Part shown: positions 18,034 to 23,858 of the stretch, piece by piece
How the letters are laid out: each line of letters begins with the position of its first letter
Position numbering within the stretch: position 1 is the first letter of the stretch
DNA from: a virus
IMG/VR virus record: IMGVR_UViG_3300043775_000281
Coordinates: 1-23,858 of that record
Strand: one strand, 5' to 3'
Length of the DNA: 23,858 nt
Translations under genes and position numbers: made by a program
Notes under the pieces: model-generated
What the model was told of the DNA's origin: nothing
What the model saw: the letters and a program-made list of their open reading frames with translations, nothing else
The model's database searches: none

Positions 18034-18210
18034 ATGAGTGGTGAAAACATATTACACAAAGAACGCGTAGAACAATTACATGAGTTTATAAGCGTTGCTA
18101 TAAAATTTGATACTAGAGATGAAGGCGTCAGTAAGTTTATTAAAGGGGTGCAGTTTGCTGTTAATCATATAGAAGACAAAACATCAACCGAGGCAGGAGA
18201 TTTAAAATGA
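18034..18210 (+). CDS. 58-residue first gene of the rightward operon, unknown
   Basis: The ATG at 18034 follows TTAGAGGATTTAAA, a clear binding site that is nearly repeated before the next gene (GCAGGAGATTTAAA). The product is acidic and helical (HKERVEQLHEFISVAIKF, SKFIKGVQFAVNHIED). It ends in a four-base-type overlap with the DUF2800 gene. No known family. As the first early gene it may be a host-takeover or regulatory protein, but this is only position. Confidence 0.65.
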   Translation: MSGENILHKERVEQLHEFISVAIKFDTRDEGVSKFIKGVQFAVNHIEDKTSTEAGDLK

Positions 18211-19325
18211 GCCACTCCAGTATCGCCGGCGGTAGCACCGCCAAACGAGTTATCGCGTGTCCTGCCAGTGTTAAGCTGGTGCAACAAATGCCACCTAAAC
18301 CATCATCATCGTATGCCGATGAAGGGACGCTTTGCCACCTTGCAATGGAAAAGTTACTCACTGAGGATAACTTTAACATTTACAGTTTGTCGTATGCGGG
18401 CATTGATATGACAACTGAGTTGGCAAAGGAAAAGATTGAACCGGCGCTGGCGGCGCTTGATGAAATTGACCCAACTAAGTCAATGGAGTTTACCGTTGAA
18501 GCTAACGTAAGCTACGGTGATTTCTTGCCTGACGTGTTTGGTAGCGTTGACCTTATCGGTAGACTTGGGGACCGCGCTGTTATCCTAGATTGGAAGTTTG
18601 GCAGTGGCGTTAGTGTAGAGGTGGAAGAAAATGAACAGCTCATGTTCTACGCCGCCGCCGCTATGCGCACAAAAGGGTTAGAATGGGTGTTTGATGGCGC
18701 GGCGTCTATTGAGCTTGTGATTGTTCAACCCCCGTCTGTTAAGCGCTGGAAAACTACTGCTAAACGCATTCGTGAGTTTGAAAAAACGCTTAAGAAAGCT
18801 ATCGATTTATCTGAAACACCTGATGCACCCTTAGCCAGTGGCAAACACTGCAAGTGGTGCGCGGCTAAACCAACTTGTCCGTTAATGACAGGTGAGGTAG
18901 ATAGAGCGCTGAAGGCAACGCTTGATAATATTGATGCAGAATCTATTGCAAACTATTTACAACAAGCTGAGATTCTGGAACAATGGATTACCGATTTGAG
19001 AGCATTAGCGTTTCAAATGCTTGAAGCGGGCAAACCAGTCCCTAACTACAAACTTGTTGCAAAGCGTGGGACAAGAAAATGGACTAATGAGGCGCAAGCA
19101 GTCGAATCGCTTTTGGCTCTTGGTCTGACAAATGATGACATCTACGATTCCAAATTGGTTTCACCGGCGCAAGCAGAAAAGAAATTAAAGGCTCTGAAAC
19201 TGCCCATGCCGGATGATGTTGTCGCAGTAGTATCTTCTGGCAGTACGATGGCGCACGAAAGTGACCCCCGTCCAACTGTCTTATTAATCGGGCAACAATT
19301 AACTAATGCCCTCAATAAACTTTAA
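18207..19325 (+). CDS. DUF2800 protein, Cas4/RecB-like iron-sulfur nuclease
   Basis: A 372-residue protein. Nuclease motifs of the PD-(D/E)xK superfamily are visible: EGTLCH (residues 39-44), FGSVD with Asp115, ILDWK with Asp128 and Lys130, and ENEQLMFYAA with Gln144/Tyr148. Cys18 in the N-terminal CPAS plus Cys215, Cys218 and Cys224 (H-C-K-W-C ... T-C-P) match the split four-cysteine iron-sulfur cluster of Cas4 and AddB. Family members in phages lie with a single-strand-binding-like protein and PolA and are thought to process DNA ends in replication or recombination. The last 140 residues are a helical domain specific to DUF2800. Strong binding site AGGAG. Confidence 0.88.
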   Translation: MSHSSIAGGSTAKRVIACPASVKLVQQMPPKPSSSYADEGTLCHLAMEKLLTEDNFNIYSLSYAGIDMTTELAKEKIEPALAALDEIDPTKSMEFTVEANVSYGDFLPDVFGSVDLIGRLGDRAVILDWKFGSGVSVEVEENEQLMFYAAAAMRTKGLEWVFDGAASIELVIVQPPSVKRWKTTAKRIREFEKTLKKAIDLSETPDAPLASGKHCKWCAAKPTCPLMTGEVDRALKATLDNIDAESIANYLQQAEILEQWITDLRALAFQMLEAGKPVPNYKLVAKRGTRKWTNEAQAVESLLALGLTNDDIYDSKLVSPAQAEKKLKALKLPMPDDVVAVVSSGSTMAHESDPRPTVLLIGQQLTNALNKL

Positions 19326-19337
19326 AGGTAAACTAAA

Positions 19338-19985
19338 ATGAACAACGTATCTGTATTTGGCAACGCCAACCTTCCAGCAGTTAACAGCATTTCTAACGCA
19401 TTACGCAACATTCAAACTGACACCAACAGCGCAGGTGGCGTCACTATCCTGAAAATGGATAGAACAGGTCACTGGGTATATGGCGCGTCTGAAACTGAAG
19501 TGGACAACGATAGCGTGTGGGCAGTTAACCCTTTTAGTTTCACGCACGGCTTTATTGCGTGGGGTGAAGGTGAAGTATTAGGTGAGAAAATGGTTAGCGT
19601 GACTGAGCCATTGCCACAAGTTGAGCCTGCGCCTGCCGCTGCTAAACGTGGTTGGGAAACGCAAGTGGGCTTCTCCCTCAAATGTATCGACGGTGAAGAC
19701 AAAGGTGAAGAAGTACGCTACACAGTCACCAGCGTGGGCGGTAAACGCGCCGTGCAAACGTTAGCAGTCAATATCGCTAATCAAGTAGAAACAGACCAAA
19801 CTAAGCCTGTCGCTGTTGTATCTTTGGGCAAAGAACACTATCAACATAAAGCCTACGGGCGTATCTACACACCGATGTTTGACATTGTGGAGTGGATTAG
19901 CCTTGACGGTGAACCTGCTACTGAAGACACACCCCAAGAAGTCATCGAAGATGACGCGCCTGCCACCCGCCGCAGACGCGCATAA
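19338..19985 (+). CDS. Probable single-stranded DNA-binding protein (DUF2815-like position)
   Basis: A 215-residue protein between the nuclease and PolA genes, where phages of this type encode an ssDNA-binding protein. The sequence is strand-rich with many aromatics (GHWVYGASETEV, SVWAVNPFSFTHGFIAWG, YGRIYTPMFDIVEWI), fitting an OB-like fold, and ends in an acidic stretch (EVIEDDAPA) followed by RRRRA. Acidic tails are typical of phage SSBs, though a terminal Arg run is not. I recognise this as a recurrent phage family but the function is inferred from context. A terminator-like hairpin follows 15 bases after the stop. Confidence 0.6.
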   Translation: MNNVSVFGNANLPAVNSISNALRNIQTDTNSAGGVTILKMDRTGHWVYGASETEVDNDSVWAVNPFSFTHGFIAWGEGEVLGEKMVSVTEPLPQVEPAPAAAKRGWETQVGFSLKCIDGEDKGEEVRYTVTSVGGKRAVQTLAVNIANQVETDQTKPVAVVSLGKEHYQHKAYGRIYTPMFDIVEWISLDGEPATEDTPQEVIEDDAPATRRRRA

Positions 19986-19990
19986 CCGAT

Positions 19991-19996
19991 AAGGAG
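19991..19996 (+). promoter_or_regulatory. Ribosome binding site separated from PolA start by a hairpin
   Basis: AAGGAG is the only good Shine-Dalgarno sequence before PolA but ends 28 bases ahead of the ATG at 20025, too far to work in a linear message. Folding of the hairpin at 20000-20017 removes 18 bases and leaves about 10 between them. Confidence 0.5.
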
Positions 19997-19999
19997 AAG

Positions 20000-20024
20000 G
20001 GCGGCTAAAAGGCCGCCTTTTTTT
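20000..20024 (+). terminator. Intrinsic-terminator-like hairpin directly before PolA
   Basis: GGCGGC (20000-20005), loop TAAAAG, GCCGCC (20012-20017), then seven T (20018-20024). The six-pair all-GC stem plus T-run is a textbook intrinsic terminator. The T-run touches the PolA ATG. It may thin transcription into PolA (attenuation), act as a translation element, or both. Confidence 0.75.
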
Positions 20025-21944
20025 ATGTCTATACTTTATATTGATTTTGAAACAAGAAGTGAATGTGACCTGCCTAAGCACGGTGTTTACAATTACGCGC
20101 AAGACCTGACTACTGACGTGCTGTGTATGTGCTACGCTTTTGATAATGAGGACGTGCAAACATGGACGCCTGATATGCCGTTTCCTGACAACGTTCGCAA
20201 CTTCACGGGTCAGATACGGGCGCATAACGCCGCGTTTGAGCGTTTAATATTCTGGTACGTTCTACAGATAGACTTTAAACTTGAACAGTTTTACTGCACC
20301 GCTGTGCAAGCACGAGCTAATTGCCTTCCGGGCAGTCTTGAGGATGTTGGTCGCGCTATCTCTAGTGAGATGCGCAAAGACCATCGTGGCAAGATGCTAG
20401 TCAAGCAGTGCTGTACTCCTCCTTTTAACACCAAATTGCTACCTGAGCTTATTGAGTATTGCCGTCAGGACGTGCGGACTATGCGGGCAGTGTCTACTGC
20501 ACTACGTCAATTGACTGATGACGAGCTTGCAGACTATCACGTCAATGAGCGCATTAACGACGCGGGTGTTCTTGTGGACGTTGACTTGTGTCGCGCCGCG
20601 ATGCGTTACGCCAGTGTCGAGCTTGAGGAAATCCAATCGCGTGTCGTGGAGTTAACGGACGGTGCAATTAAATCTGTTCGCTCGCCTAAGATGCGTGAGT
20701 GGGTGCTTGAGCGTGTTGGCCCTGCCGCGCGTGAGTTGATGTGGAACGGTGAGAAGTATTCTATCGACAAAAGCGTCCGCGCTAATTTAATGCTGATGGA
20801 CGACCCTGAAGAAATCCCTCCGCACGTTGGCGAAGTTATCCAGTGCGCTGATGACTTGTGGGCGTCGTCTGTTGCTAAGTTTAATCGTCTGCTTTACCTT
20901 GCGGACTTTGAAGACCATCGTGTGCGTGGCGCGTTTGTTTTTAACGGTGGCTCGGCTACTGGTCGAGCGTCATCGTATGGTGCGCAGGTGCATAACTTCA
21001 CGCGTAAATGCGCCAAAGAGCCACAGCGAGTGCGTGATGATATGGTCATTGGGCGCAACATTGTTCCGGTGCATGGCAAGCGCGTGACGGACGTTCTGAA
21101 AGGTATGCTTCGCCCTGCGCTGATGCCTGCTAGCGGAAACGTGTTCGTGGTAGCAGATTGGGCGGGTATTGAAGCGCGTGTAACGCCTTGGGCGAGTTTG
21201 CAGCACGGCAGTGAAGACGTGCTTGACGTGTTCCGCACGGGTGAGGACATCTACATTCGCGCGGCGGCGGGTATATTTAACCGTCCGATGGACGCAATAA
21301 CACCTGACCAACGTCAGATAGGTAAGGTGGCGATTCTATCGTGTGGCTATATGGGTGGTGCTGGCGCGTTTGGTGCTATGGGTAAAGCTTATGGCATCTC
21401 ACTGCCTGAAGCAGAGGCTAAACGTACCGTTGACGCGTGGCGTCGCAGTAACACTTGGGCGGTGCAATACTGGGGCGAGCTTGAGCGGGCGTATATGTGC
21501 GCCATGCGCCACAAAGGACGTGAGTTTACCGCTGGGCGCGTGACGTATCTGTTTGATGGCGTGAATTTGTGGTACGCCTTGCCGTCTGGTCGGGTGCTGT
21601 GTTACCCGTCCGCGTACATAGAAGACGGTGGCGTAACTTACGCTAAGGCGGCGTGGAAACCCGCTGCTGATGCAGTCGAATGGCCGCGAGCTAGGCTATG
21701 GGCTGGACTTGCTTGTGAGAACATTACACAGGCAATTGCAAATGATTTACTTCGTGACGCGTTGCGCCGAATCGGGCATACTGTCGTGCTTCATGTTCAC
21801 GATGAAATCGTCTTAGAAGTGCAAAAAGAAGACGCGGAAAGCGCCGCGCAAGACTTGGAAACGGTGATGTGTAGCGCTCCTGCGTGGGCAGAAGGTCTAC
21901 CGTTAGCTGTTGGTGTATCGACATTAGAGAGATATGGAAAATGA
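20025..21944 (+). CDS. Family A DNA polymerase with 3'-5' exonuclease
   Basis: A 639-residue replicative polymerase. Exonuclease motifs: YIDFET (Asp7, Glu9), AHNAAFE (around Asn68) and YCRQDV (Asp149). Polymerase motif A is VVADWAGIEAR (Asp378; usual DxSxIExR), motif B runs from RQIGK (Lys434) to CGYMGG, and motif C is HVHDEIV (His592, Asp593, Glu594). All catalytic residues are present, so it should be active and proofreading. The ATG at 20025 is firm because family members begin just before the first exonuclease strand and no other start is in frame after the upstream stop. Initiation is unusual: the T-run of a terminator-like hairpin touches the ATG. It overlaps the primase-helicase gene by ATGA. 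Confidence 0.95.
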   Translation: MSILYIDFETRSECDLPKHGVYNYAQDLTTDVLCMCYAFDNEDVQTWTPDMPFPDNVRNFTGQIRAHNAAFERLIFWYVLQIDFKLEQFYCTAVQARANCLPGSLEDVGRAISSEMRKDHRGKMLVKQCCTPPFNTKLLPELIEYCRQDVRTMRAVSTALRQLTDDELADYHVNERINDAGVLVDVDLCRAAMRYASVELEEIQSRVVELTDGAIKSVRSPKMREWVLERVGPAARELMWNGEKYSIDKSVRANLMLMDDPEEIPPHVGEVIQCADDLWASSVAKFNRLLYLADFEDHRVRGAFVFNGGSATGRASSYGAQVHNFTRKCAKEPQRVRDDMVIGRNIVPVHGKRVTDVLKGMLRPALMPASGNVFVVADWAGIEARVTPWASLQHGSEDVLDVFRTGEDIYIRAAAGIFNRPMDAITPDQRQIGKVAILSCGYMGGAGAFGAMGKAYGISLPEAEAKRTVDAWRRSNTWAVQYWGELERAYMCAMRHKGREFTAGRVTYLFDGVNLWYALPSGRVLCYPSAYIEDGGVTYAKAAWKPAADAVEWPRARLWAGLACENITQAIANDLLRDALRRIGHTVVLHVHDEIVLEVQKEDAESAAQDLETVMCSAPAWAEGLPLAVGVSTLERYGK

Positions 21945-23858
21945 ATTTTATTAAGTATTTAGAGAGAATCGCGCCGGAAGGCGAAACCGTCCTTCTGGTC
22001 AAACAAATAGCTAAAGACAATGGTCAGTTTGCATGGCCTGCGTATCTGCCAGCAAAGTACGATGGCAAAGGCGCATGGTATGGCAATACCGCGTCGTTTA
22101 TCACGTCACGTTTTAAAGATGGCAAACCGTCTGCGAGCGCAGGCAATTGCGAATACGTCGCCTTCCTTGTGCTAGACGACATCGGCACCAAGAGTCTACG
22201 CCCGCCTATCGAGCCGACGTGGATAATGGAAACCTCACCACAGAATTTTCAGTGGGGATACACTTTTGCTTTAGATGATATGCCAACGAAAGGCGAATTC
22301 AGCGCCGCTATTAAAGCAATCGCTGACGCTGGGTACACTGACAGCGGCGCAATTAACCCCGTGCGGAATTTTCGTTTGCCTGCGTCGGTCAATTTGAAGC
22401 CTGACCGTGCATCGTTTCAGTCTATTCTTGTGGAATTTCACCCGGAGCGTGAGTTTACCCTCGACCAAATATGCTCGGCGCTTGACGTTCACCCGTCTGA
22501 TGCTGACACGGCGTCTGTGCGTCCAATAGCTATCATTGATACAGGCAGTGATGAAGTGCTTGACTGGTTAGCCTCGCGTGGTGACGTAATGGAGTCAGCT
22601 AACGCTGAGGGCTGGGTTGGGGTGGTTTGCCCTAATCACGCAGAGCATACTGATGGGCAGTTAATGGGTAGATACCACCCACTTAACCGTGCTTACTGTT
22701 GCTTTCATGGCCATTGTTCTCTATGGGACAGCCGCGCATACCTTGCGTGGGTTGCTGAAATGGGCGGCCCTAAGCACTCGCATGGTCTTCGTGAGGAAAT
22801 CCTTGCAGAGGTGTTGCACAATGCGATTGGCAAACTTGAGCCTACGGATATGTTCAGCACTGACGCGGCGGCTATTATCGCAGAAGTTGAACAGAAAGAA
22901 ATCGCACGTCTTGAGAAGGCGGAGTGGTATCAACGTTTTGCTTACGTCATGTCAGACGATTCTTACTTCGATTTGCAAAACCGTCGTGAATTCTCACGTC
23001 AGACGTTCAACGCCGTGTTTCGTCATGTGTCGTGCAAAAGTATTCACTCCGACCGTAAGATAGAGGCCGCCATGAGCTTTGACGAGAATCGTCAGGTGAT
23101 GGGCGCTAGAGTGCTGGCAGGTATCACCTTTGCCGCTGGTGACTCGGTAATTGCTACGCGTGACGGTGAATTGTATGGCAACCGCTGGCGTGACGCTCGC
23201 CCAGATTCATCTCGTGGCGGAAATTTGGGTGGCAATATATCCTTGTGGCTTGACCACTGTAAATCGCTTGTTCCTGACGAGCGTGAGCTTAACCATATAT
23301 GGGATTACATGGCATTCAAAGTGCAGAATCCGCGCGTTAAGATTAACCACGCTATTCTTCACGCTGGTGGTCAAGGTATTGGTAAGGATACGATGTATGC
23401 CCCATTCATTTACGCCGTGTGCGGCCCTCACCTGCGCAATTACTCACTCATGTCTACTGACACCATTCAATCTGCGTGGGGTTATCATTTAGAAGCGGAA
23501 ATTATTGTCATTAATGAGCTTAAAGAAGCCGACAGCGCCGCGCGTCGGATGCTTGCCAACAAACTCAAGCCTGTCATCGCCGCACCACCTGAGATGCTGT
23601 CTGTTAATCGTAAAGGCCTTGCCCCATACAACCTTGTAAACCGTCTTGCTGTGCTTGCGTTCTCTAATGACCGTGTACCGTTGTCACTCGAATCGGGTGA
23701 CCGTCGTTGGTTTGCTACTTGGAGTACGGCGGAGCGCTTGCCTCCGCAATCAGCTACCGCTATATGGAAATGGTTTAATGACGGCGGTGGGTATGACCTT
23801 ATTGCCAACTGGTTGTTCTTGCGTGATGTGTCTGCGTTCAACCCTGCTGCGCCTGCGC
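21941..23858 (+). CDS. Primase-helicase (RepB-type primase, DUF5906/D5-like helicase), 3' end outside window
   Basis: The ATG at 21941 overlaps the PolA stop; the frame is open to the last base (about 639 residues seen). Residues about 1-190 resemble the RepB-type DNA primase domain (NCEYVAFLVLDDIGTK, TSPQNFQWGYTF, NPVRNFRLPASVNLKP). A zinc-binding set follows: Cys230-x2-His233 and a C-C-F-H-G-H-C cluster at 253-259. The helicase part has Walker A GGQGIGKDT (Lys482) and Walker B IIVINEL (Asn525-Glu526), as in the superfamily 3-like DUF5906 helicases. The later RLAVLAFSNDRVPL and GDRRWF are the sensor and arginine-finger region. It should prime and unwind DNA for the PolA encoded just upstream. 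Confidence 0.88.
   Translation, partial: MNFIKYLERIAPEGETVLLVKQIAKDNGQFAWPAYLPAKYDGKGAWYGNTASFITSRFKDGKPSASAGNCEYVAFLVLDDIGTKSLRPPIEPTWIMETSPQNFQWGYTFALDDMPTKGEFSAAIKAIADAGYTDSGAINPVRNFRLPASVNLKPDRASFQSILVEFHPEREFTLDQICSALDVHPSDADTASVRPIAIIDTGSDEVLDWLASRGDVMESANAEGWVGVVCPNHAEHTDGQLMGRYHPLNRAYCCFHGHCSLWDSRAYLAWVAEMGGPKHSHGLREEILAEVLHNAIGKLEPTDMFSTDAAAIIAEVEQKEIARLEKAEWYQRFAYVMSDDSYFDLQNRREFSRQTFNAVFRHVSCKSIHSDRKIEAAMSFDENRQVMGARVLAGITFAAGDSVIATRDGELYGNRWRDARPDSSRGGNLGGNISLWLDHCKSLVPDERELNHIWDYMAFKVQNPRVKINHAILHAGGQGIGKDTMYAPFIYAVCGPHLRNYSLMSTDTIQSAWGYHLEAEIIVINELKEADSAARRMLANKLKPVIAAPPEMLSVNRKGLAPYNLVNRLAVLAFSNDRVPLSLESGDRRWFATWSTAERLPPQSATAIWKWFNDGGGYDLIANWLFLRDVSAFNPAAPA

Follow-up and report, generated by a model that had tools for sequence, protein, structure and literature searches.

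How is translation of a DNA polymerase gene begun when its only strong ribosome binding site lies 28 nt before the start codon and a terminator-like hairpin fills the space between them? The question is raised by a 23,858-base virus record (a freshwater phage), analysed over its whole length and called the window here, in which the genes for a DUF2800 nuclease, an SSB-like protein and a family A DNA polymerase (polA) are consecutive on the plus strand. The genes and the parts of the element between them are as follows.

18207-19325, plus strand: DUF2800 nuclease gene, upstream of the SSB-like gene
19338-19985, plus strand: SSB-like gene, an open reading frame of 215 aa with its TAA stop at 19983-19985
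19991-19996, plus strand: Shine-Dalgarno-like AAGGAG (pairing region about 19990-19997; -9.3 kcal/mol against the 16S tail)
19993-19999, plus strand: outer 5' strand GGAGAAG, able to bury the site by pairing with the U-run (minimum-energy fold)
20000-20006, plus strand: 5' arm of the core stem, GGCGGCU (predicted fold)
20007-20010, plus strand: loop AAAA (predicted fold); in many close relatives GAAA, a GNRA tetraloop
20011-20017, plus strand: 3' arm of the core stem, GGCCGCC (predicted fold)
20018-20024, plus strand: U7 run, which resembles a terminator tail, separates the core stem from the ATG and can form the 3' side of the outer stem
20025-21944, plus strand: polA, family A DNA polymerase, 639 aa, ATG at 20025-20027 (Pfam DNA_pol_A, 4.8e-21; PHROG 17)

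An earlier note on this DNA had placed the AAGGAG, the hairpin and the ATG at these positions with a spacing of 28 nt, and on checking the coordinates proved correct. The AAGGAG begins 5 nt past the TAA that ends the SSB-like gene. Between this stop codon and the polA ATG are 39 bases, which hold the AAGGAG, the hairpin and seven T. The core hairpin has 7 bp (GGCGGCU/GGCCGCC), six of them consecutive G-C pairs, closed by the AAAA loop; the folding energy of the region is between -20.6 and -24.4 kcal/mol (z -4.4), and none of 200 shuffles folded equally well. A strict scan of both strands of the whole window, with minima of 6 G-C pairs and, within the next 8 bases, 6 T, matched only at 20000-20017, whereas dinucleotide shuffles gave 0.025 matches on average. 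A looser terminator scan of the window was uninformative (15 found, 14.0 expected), and an Rfam search gave no match for the hairpin.

As far as sequence can tell, ATG 20025 is the true start of polA, being set by a conserved N-terminal IDFETRS motif that lies a few codons downstream in all relatives. The other genes of the window mostly carry their binding site 4-10 nt before the start, and between the AAGGAG and the polA ATG there is neither a start codon nor a good site. The nearest site-like sequence to the ATG, AAAGG in the loop, was considered as a candidate and rejected as weak (-3.2 kcal/mol) and unconserved, being lost in four close relatives (L006, L021, L031 and L059), and the claim that AAGGAG is the only strong polA site was upheld. 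Subtraction of the 18-nt core from the 28 nt leaves the 10 nt that had been foreseen for the folded hairpin, and the core hairpin is predicted to stay folded at this distance when the AAGGAG is held open. The further claim that the T-run ends exactly at the ATG is true of the window and of nearly all its close relatives (6-7 T and then ATG, with ATT in L012).

The neighbouring genes are less clearly defined. The upstream protein had no Pfam or NCBIfam match, and sequence searches of PDB and NCBIfam left it without identification; the best PDB matches to its AlphaFold model are mostly SSBs, at a weak E of 0.013 or above, and the SSB label is accordingly a weak one. The reading frame of the gene after polA (21884-23857, plus strand; DUF5906, primase/helicase type) extends back to a GTG that lies 60 bases within polA, and the true start of this gene may be further downstream.

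The earlier note had overlooked that the U-run is able to sequester the AAGGAG. In the minimum-energy fold U20018-U20024 are paired with 19993-19999, and since the U-run thus pairs with the binding site too, the full 14-bp stem hides the AAGGAG, with GGAG buried; as the same run follows a GC stem and precedes the ATG, it would combine a terminator tail, a spacer and a possible lock. The sequence parts, their predicted folds and the recurrence of the layout with different stems are all directly seen, and their best explanation, which we consider probable, is a polA binding site that accommodates a structure, joined to an intrinsic-terminator-like 3' end of the SSB-like gene. Some transcripts may terminate within the U-run and so lack a start for polA, and in those that continue the folded GC core would move the AAGGAG from 28 to 10 nt before the AUG, so that ribosomes could use it for polA across the hairpin. 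The outer stem, in which the site is paired with the U-run, would have to open for initiation. A ribosome terminating at the TAA, its footprint reaching about as far as the site but not the core, might open this stem and hand the site over, and would in that way couple polA to translation of the SSB-like gene. That the element sets the ratio of PolA to SSB is a reasonable guess.

A hairpin shortens the distance from site to AUG from 22 to 5 nt in T4 gene 38 and from 27 to 11 nt in T4 gene 25, and stem-weakening mutations in these genes reduce initiation (PMC3014915). The window shares with them a site that is too distant (28 nt here, 22-27 nt in T4), an intercistronic hairpin that would shorten the distance (to 10 nt here, 5-11 nt in T4) and the lack of a competing ordinary site, and a mechanism of the gene 25/38 kind is the best explanation by analogy. 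It differs in that its hairpin adds a terminator's GC stem and U-run, the latter able to bury the site, and in that the layout recurs in many lineages of the phage group with unrelated stems; moreover, the T4 cases are backed by mutants and probing, whereas the window element is known from its sequence and predicted folds. With intrinsic terminators and attenuators it shares a GC-rich stem followed by seven U, but its tail runs straight into a start codon, its stem lies inside the downstream initiation region and several relatives keep the stem without the U-run. What is new is that such a start would be combined with a terminator and with a tail able to hide the site, and that the arrangement comes back repeatedly in structures unrelated to one another.

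A search with PolA gave about 290 loci, mostly viral contigs from environmental samples, and the junction, taken from the stop codon of the SSB-like gene to the next gene, was usable in 262 of them (155 distinct, in 70 clusters); a strong GC stem was present in 146 junctions. Among related MAG contigs some bear the names Rhodoferax or betaproteobacteria, which offers no more than a lead to the host. The window's own clade has 13 variants, all with 6-7 T. AAGGAG and ATG are intact in all ten distinct close-relative junctions that run directly into polA, whereas two of the four variants with an inserted gene that has its own site have lost the AAGGAG or the hairpin's ATG (relaxation test, p 0.066). 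The inserted gene in this subgroup is PAPS-reductase-like by Pfam. L026 has lost the site and L012 the ATG, and both retain the stem and the U-run. Since site and ATG are kept without exception only in junctions that run straight into polA, and stem and U-run are kept regardless, the comparison suggests that polA maintains the former and something else, most simply termination, the latter. In the junctions of L016, L017, L024, L026, L050, L052 and L057 the hairpin's ATG survives gene insertion as the start of an 8-codon open reading frame, MFVLLELI and a stop, the stop overlapping the ATG of the inserted gene (ATGA).

The same pattern lends itself to a second explanation, which we regard as possible but doubtful, namely that the hairpin is a terminator or a stabiliser of the RNA 3' end of the SSB-like gene, that polA starts weakly and independently of any site at an AU-rich start, and that AAGGAG is a purine tract upstream of a terminator. 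The element does remain at the 3' end of the upstream gene whichever gene follows, its stem and U-run outlast the loss of site or ATG in L012 and L026, a hairpin lies 3' of the DUF2815/SSB-like gene even in distant phages, and many relatives have larger RNAs in the gap without any site. Against this, AAGGAG is invariant only where polA follows directly, and most other genes of the phage use a close site.

Also against a terminator without a bridge are the relatives L053 and L126, in which stems that lack a U-run keep the site and the spacing. Among related junctions a recurrent order is seen of binding site, stem, 6-12 nt and ATG, the stems being unrelated. In a clade whose PolA is about 65% identical the stem is unrelated to the window's (for example AAGGAG-C-GGGGGC..GCCCCC-GATCTTT-ATG), and the layout runs from AAGGAG or GGAG through a stem of GGGGGC..GCCCCC, whose loop varies (GNRA, UUCG or UACG), and a further 6-9 nt to the ATG. 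The U-run is degraded there (ATCTTTCT), and in L053 and L126 it is absent (ACACTGAC) while site, stem, a spacing of 8 nt and ATG are retained. An inserted gene occupies the hairpin's start position with spacing unchanged in L033, L046, L124 and L230; the inserted genes are cytosine methylases in L124 and L230 (Pfam) and an unrelated protein in L033 and L046, where polA, moved away from the hairpin, instead has a site-like GGTGAG near its start, and in L053 the inserted gene encodes a small protein. A quite different gene pair in L322 and L305 has TAAGGAG, a larger RNA, 7-12 nt and ATG. That related phages rebuild the layout with unrelated hairpins suggests a real, rarely described mode of gene control.

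It had been proposed that compensating changes in the stem be sought among related phages, and that relatives with an ordinary site close to the ATG would speak against the bridge. Changes that preserve pairing are present in the 65% clade (GGGGGCUG/CAGCCCCC against GGGGGUCG/CGGCCCCC and GGGGGCCG/CGGCCCCC), the phylogenetic test given below being non-significant. Relatives with an ordinary site close to the start do exist in number, and L058, L062, L070 and Streptococcus phage Javan385 are among those with no hairpin, or with a hairpin followed by an ordinary site; the bridged layout is therefore not universal, but all close relatives in which polA comes next retain it, as do several lineages whose stems are different. 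Of the two roles that had been claimed for the hairpin, bridging is backed by this recurrence with unrelated stems, and attenuation by the same element is plausible within the window's clade. In a further group of junctions (L092, L107, L117, L121, L150 and others) there is no hairpin, and polA begins inside the SSB-like gene or immediately at its end (TGATG).

Across the 70 clusters, starts within 14 nt of the stem that lack a close site were compared with starts that have their own site, an upstream site being counted if it paired at -4 kcal/mol or better. An upstream site was found for 16 of 32 near-stem starts and 6 of 26 own-site starts (Fisher p 0.033), and for 12 of 18 against 6 of 21 when simple hairpins only were considered (Fisher p 0.019); in all 16 such cases the core stem is predicted to form still with the site held open. 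For half of the near-stem starts a clear site is lacking both upstream and downstream, and a simple Mann-Whitney test found no significant difference in the strength of the upstream site (p 0.10). Independent pairs on the PolA tree were consistent in direction, 3.8 concordant against 0.2 discordant, and not significant (p 0.125). An initial Fisher test on "qualified" bridges (p 3e-4) was discounted as partly circular, because a start's own site pushes it away from the stem. The bridged state is scattered on the PolA tree (15 changes, with 14.7 expected by shuffling), from which it appears that the junction turns over fast. The statistics favour bridging, with moderate support that is suggestive and not proof.

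The bridged start has also to be set against the burial of its site, since the cost of freeing the AAGGAG in the full fold, 4.6 kcal/mol in local context and 8.2 in a longer one, is near the -9.3 kcal/mol of its pairing with the 16S tail and counts against bridging. A third explanation, which we think improbable, makes this the main function, the structure chiefly repressing translation of polA by hiding the site in the 14-bp stem of U-run and GGAG until upstream translation or a factor opens it. Burial of GGAG in the minimum-energy fold, opening costs of up to 11 kcal/mol in other relatives and a pyrimidine-rich spacer 3' of the stem in many of them would fit such a role. The cost of opening is nevertheless small in L053 (0.4 kcal/mol) and L172 (0.8 kcal/mol), and a site 28 nt from the start would be useless without the core stem, so that pure repression does not explain the layout.

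Autoregulation, in which PolA would bind the hairpin and repress its own translation as T4 gp43 does, is very unlikely. The likeness to T4 gene 43 is that a phage DNA polymerase gene has an RNA hairpin where its translation is initiated (PMC3014915). The window element differs from that operator in being unconserved in sequence and not tied to polA: stems and loops are unrelated among relatives, and where other genes are inserted before polA the element is left with the upstream gene. As it does not follow polA, it is not an operator of the gene 43 type. Readthrough of the stop codon or frameshifting stimulated by the hairpin, to give an SSB-PolA fusion, fits a hairpin shortly 3' of a stop and the in-frame 39-nt gap of the window, and was rejected as the gaps from stop to ATG in relatives run from 32 to 53 nt with no frame preference.

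The slot taken up by the hairpin in the window holds larger RNAs in other phages. One, termed class B, consists of two covarying helices around an internal loop (P1-GAAAGCGGAUGC-P2-GACGCAGCGAGUA-P1') and was found in at least 120 viral contigs. It most often begins 5-8 nt beyond a stop codon, the genes that precede it are of many kinds, and each of the 11 records checked had a single copy. Covariation extends over both helices (88 double-change cells against 29.9 shuffled; score 0.639 against 0.204), the invariance of the core results partly from the exact search pattern, and there was no meaningful Rfam match. Another, class C, also in at least 120 contigs, has nested helices and a likely pseudoknot, GCCAG/CUGGC, with GGCAG/CUGCC or GGUAG/CUACC elsewhere, and a helix change from UCGA/UCGA to UCAA/UUGA. 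Copies include the following.

L369, 6663-6729, minus strand: class B
L322, 1054-1121, minus strand: class B
L161, after the stop of the SSB-like gene: class B (with at least about 110 other unique copies)
L174, 964-1080, plus strand: class C
L051, 2899-3013, plus strand: class C
L343, 6702-6816, minus strand: class C (at least about 90 unique copies)

By sequence comparison class C appears to be a sub-threshold relative of Rfam RF02496 (Atu_At1): the L174 copy matches over its full length with a similar layout of helices and loops, but at 24 bits (E 0.03), far under the gathering score of 60, and the class C member L083 gave no match to Atu_At1. The larger RNAs are mostly followed by an ordinary site or none and hence are not bridges in general, the full bridged layout being seen with a larger RNA in few junctions, those of L174 (a 92-nt RNA in the gap), L305 and L322. 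After the SSB-like stop of L170, L140 and L183 there is a third conserved block, RNA-like and about 96 nt long (..CTGAGG..TGAGGAGC..GAGGAACTA..), with a closing GC helix and no Rfam match, and in L265, L275 and L283 class B is followed in tandem by a second long hairpin in which CCTTGGTCGG is conserved. On the minus strand, L036 5478-5525, L110 3946-3995, L170 4763-4816 and L183 3990-4043 match Rfam Betaproteobacteria_toxic_sRNA below threshold (26-28 bits, against a gathering score of 50); these matches consist mostly of a terminator-like hairpin preceded by UUUCUCC and may be due to chance.

Taking hairpins and larger RNAs together, it can tentatively be suggested, as a reading that we would not yet favour, that the space downstream of the SSB-like gene accepts interchangeable RNA structures, from 14-nt tetraloop hairpins to covarying RNAs of some 50-100 nt, in a large group of freshwater phages, where the ribosome crosses from a site beside the preceding stop and any RNA domain could serve as a controllable initiation joint. 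The GAAAGCGGAUGC..GACGCAGCGAGUA RNA would then be an undescribed class, present once per genome behind different genes. It also counts against a bridge that hairpins beside a stop may exist for other reasons, the upstream site being merely tolerated.

To our knowledge, very few genes are known to start across a hairpin, genes 25 and 38 of T4 being the main examples. If the bridged start of polA is real, a whole phage group would be using such starts repeatedly and independently, joined to a terminator. The junctions would then form a natural series, with and without a U-run, with and without an upstream site and with RNAs of 14 to 92 nt, suited to testing what length of RNA a ribosome is able to pass over from its binding site to the start codon, and they would warn annotation and expression tools that distant binding sites can be real.
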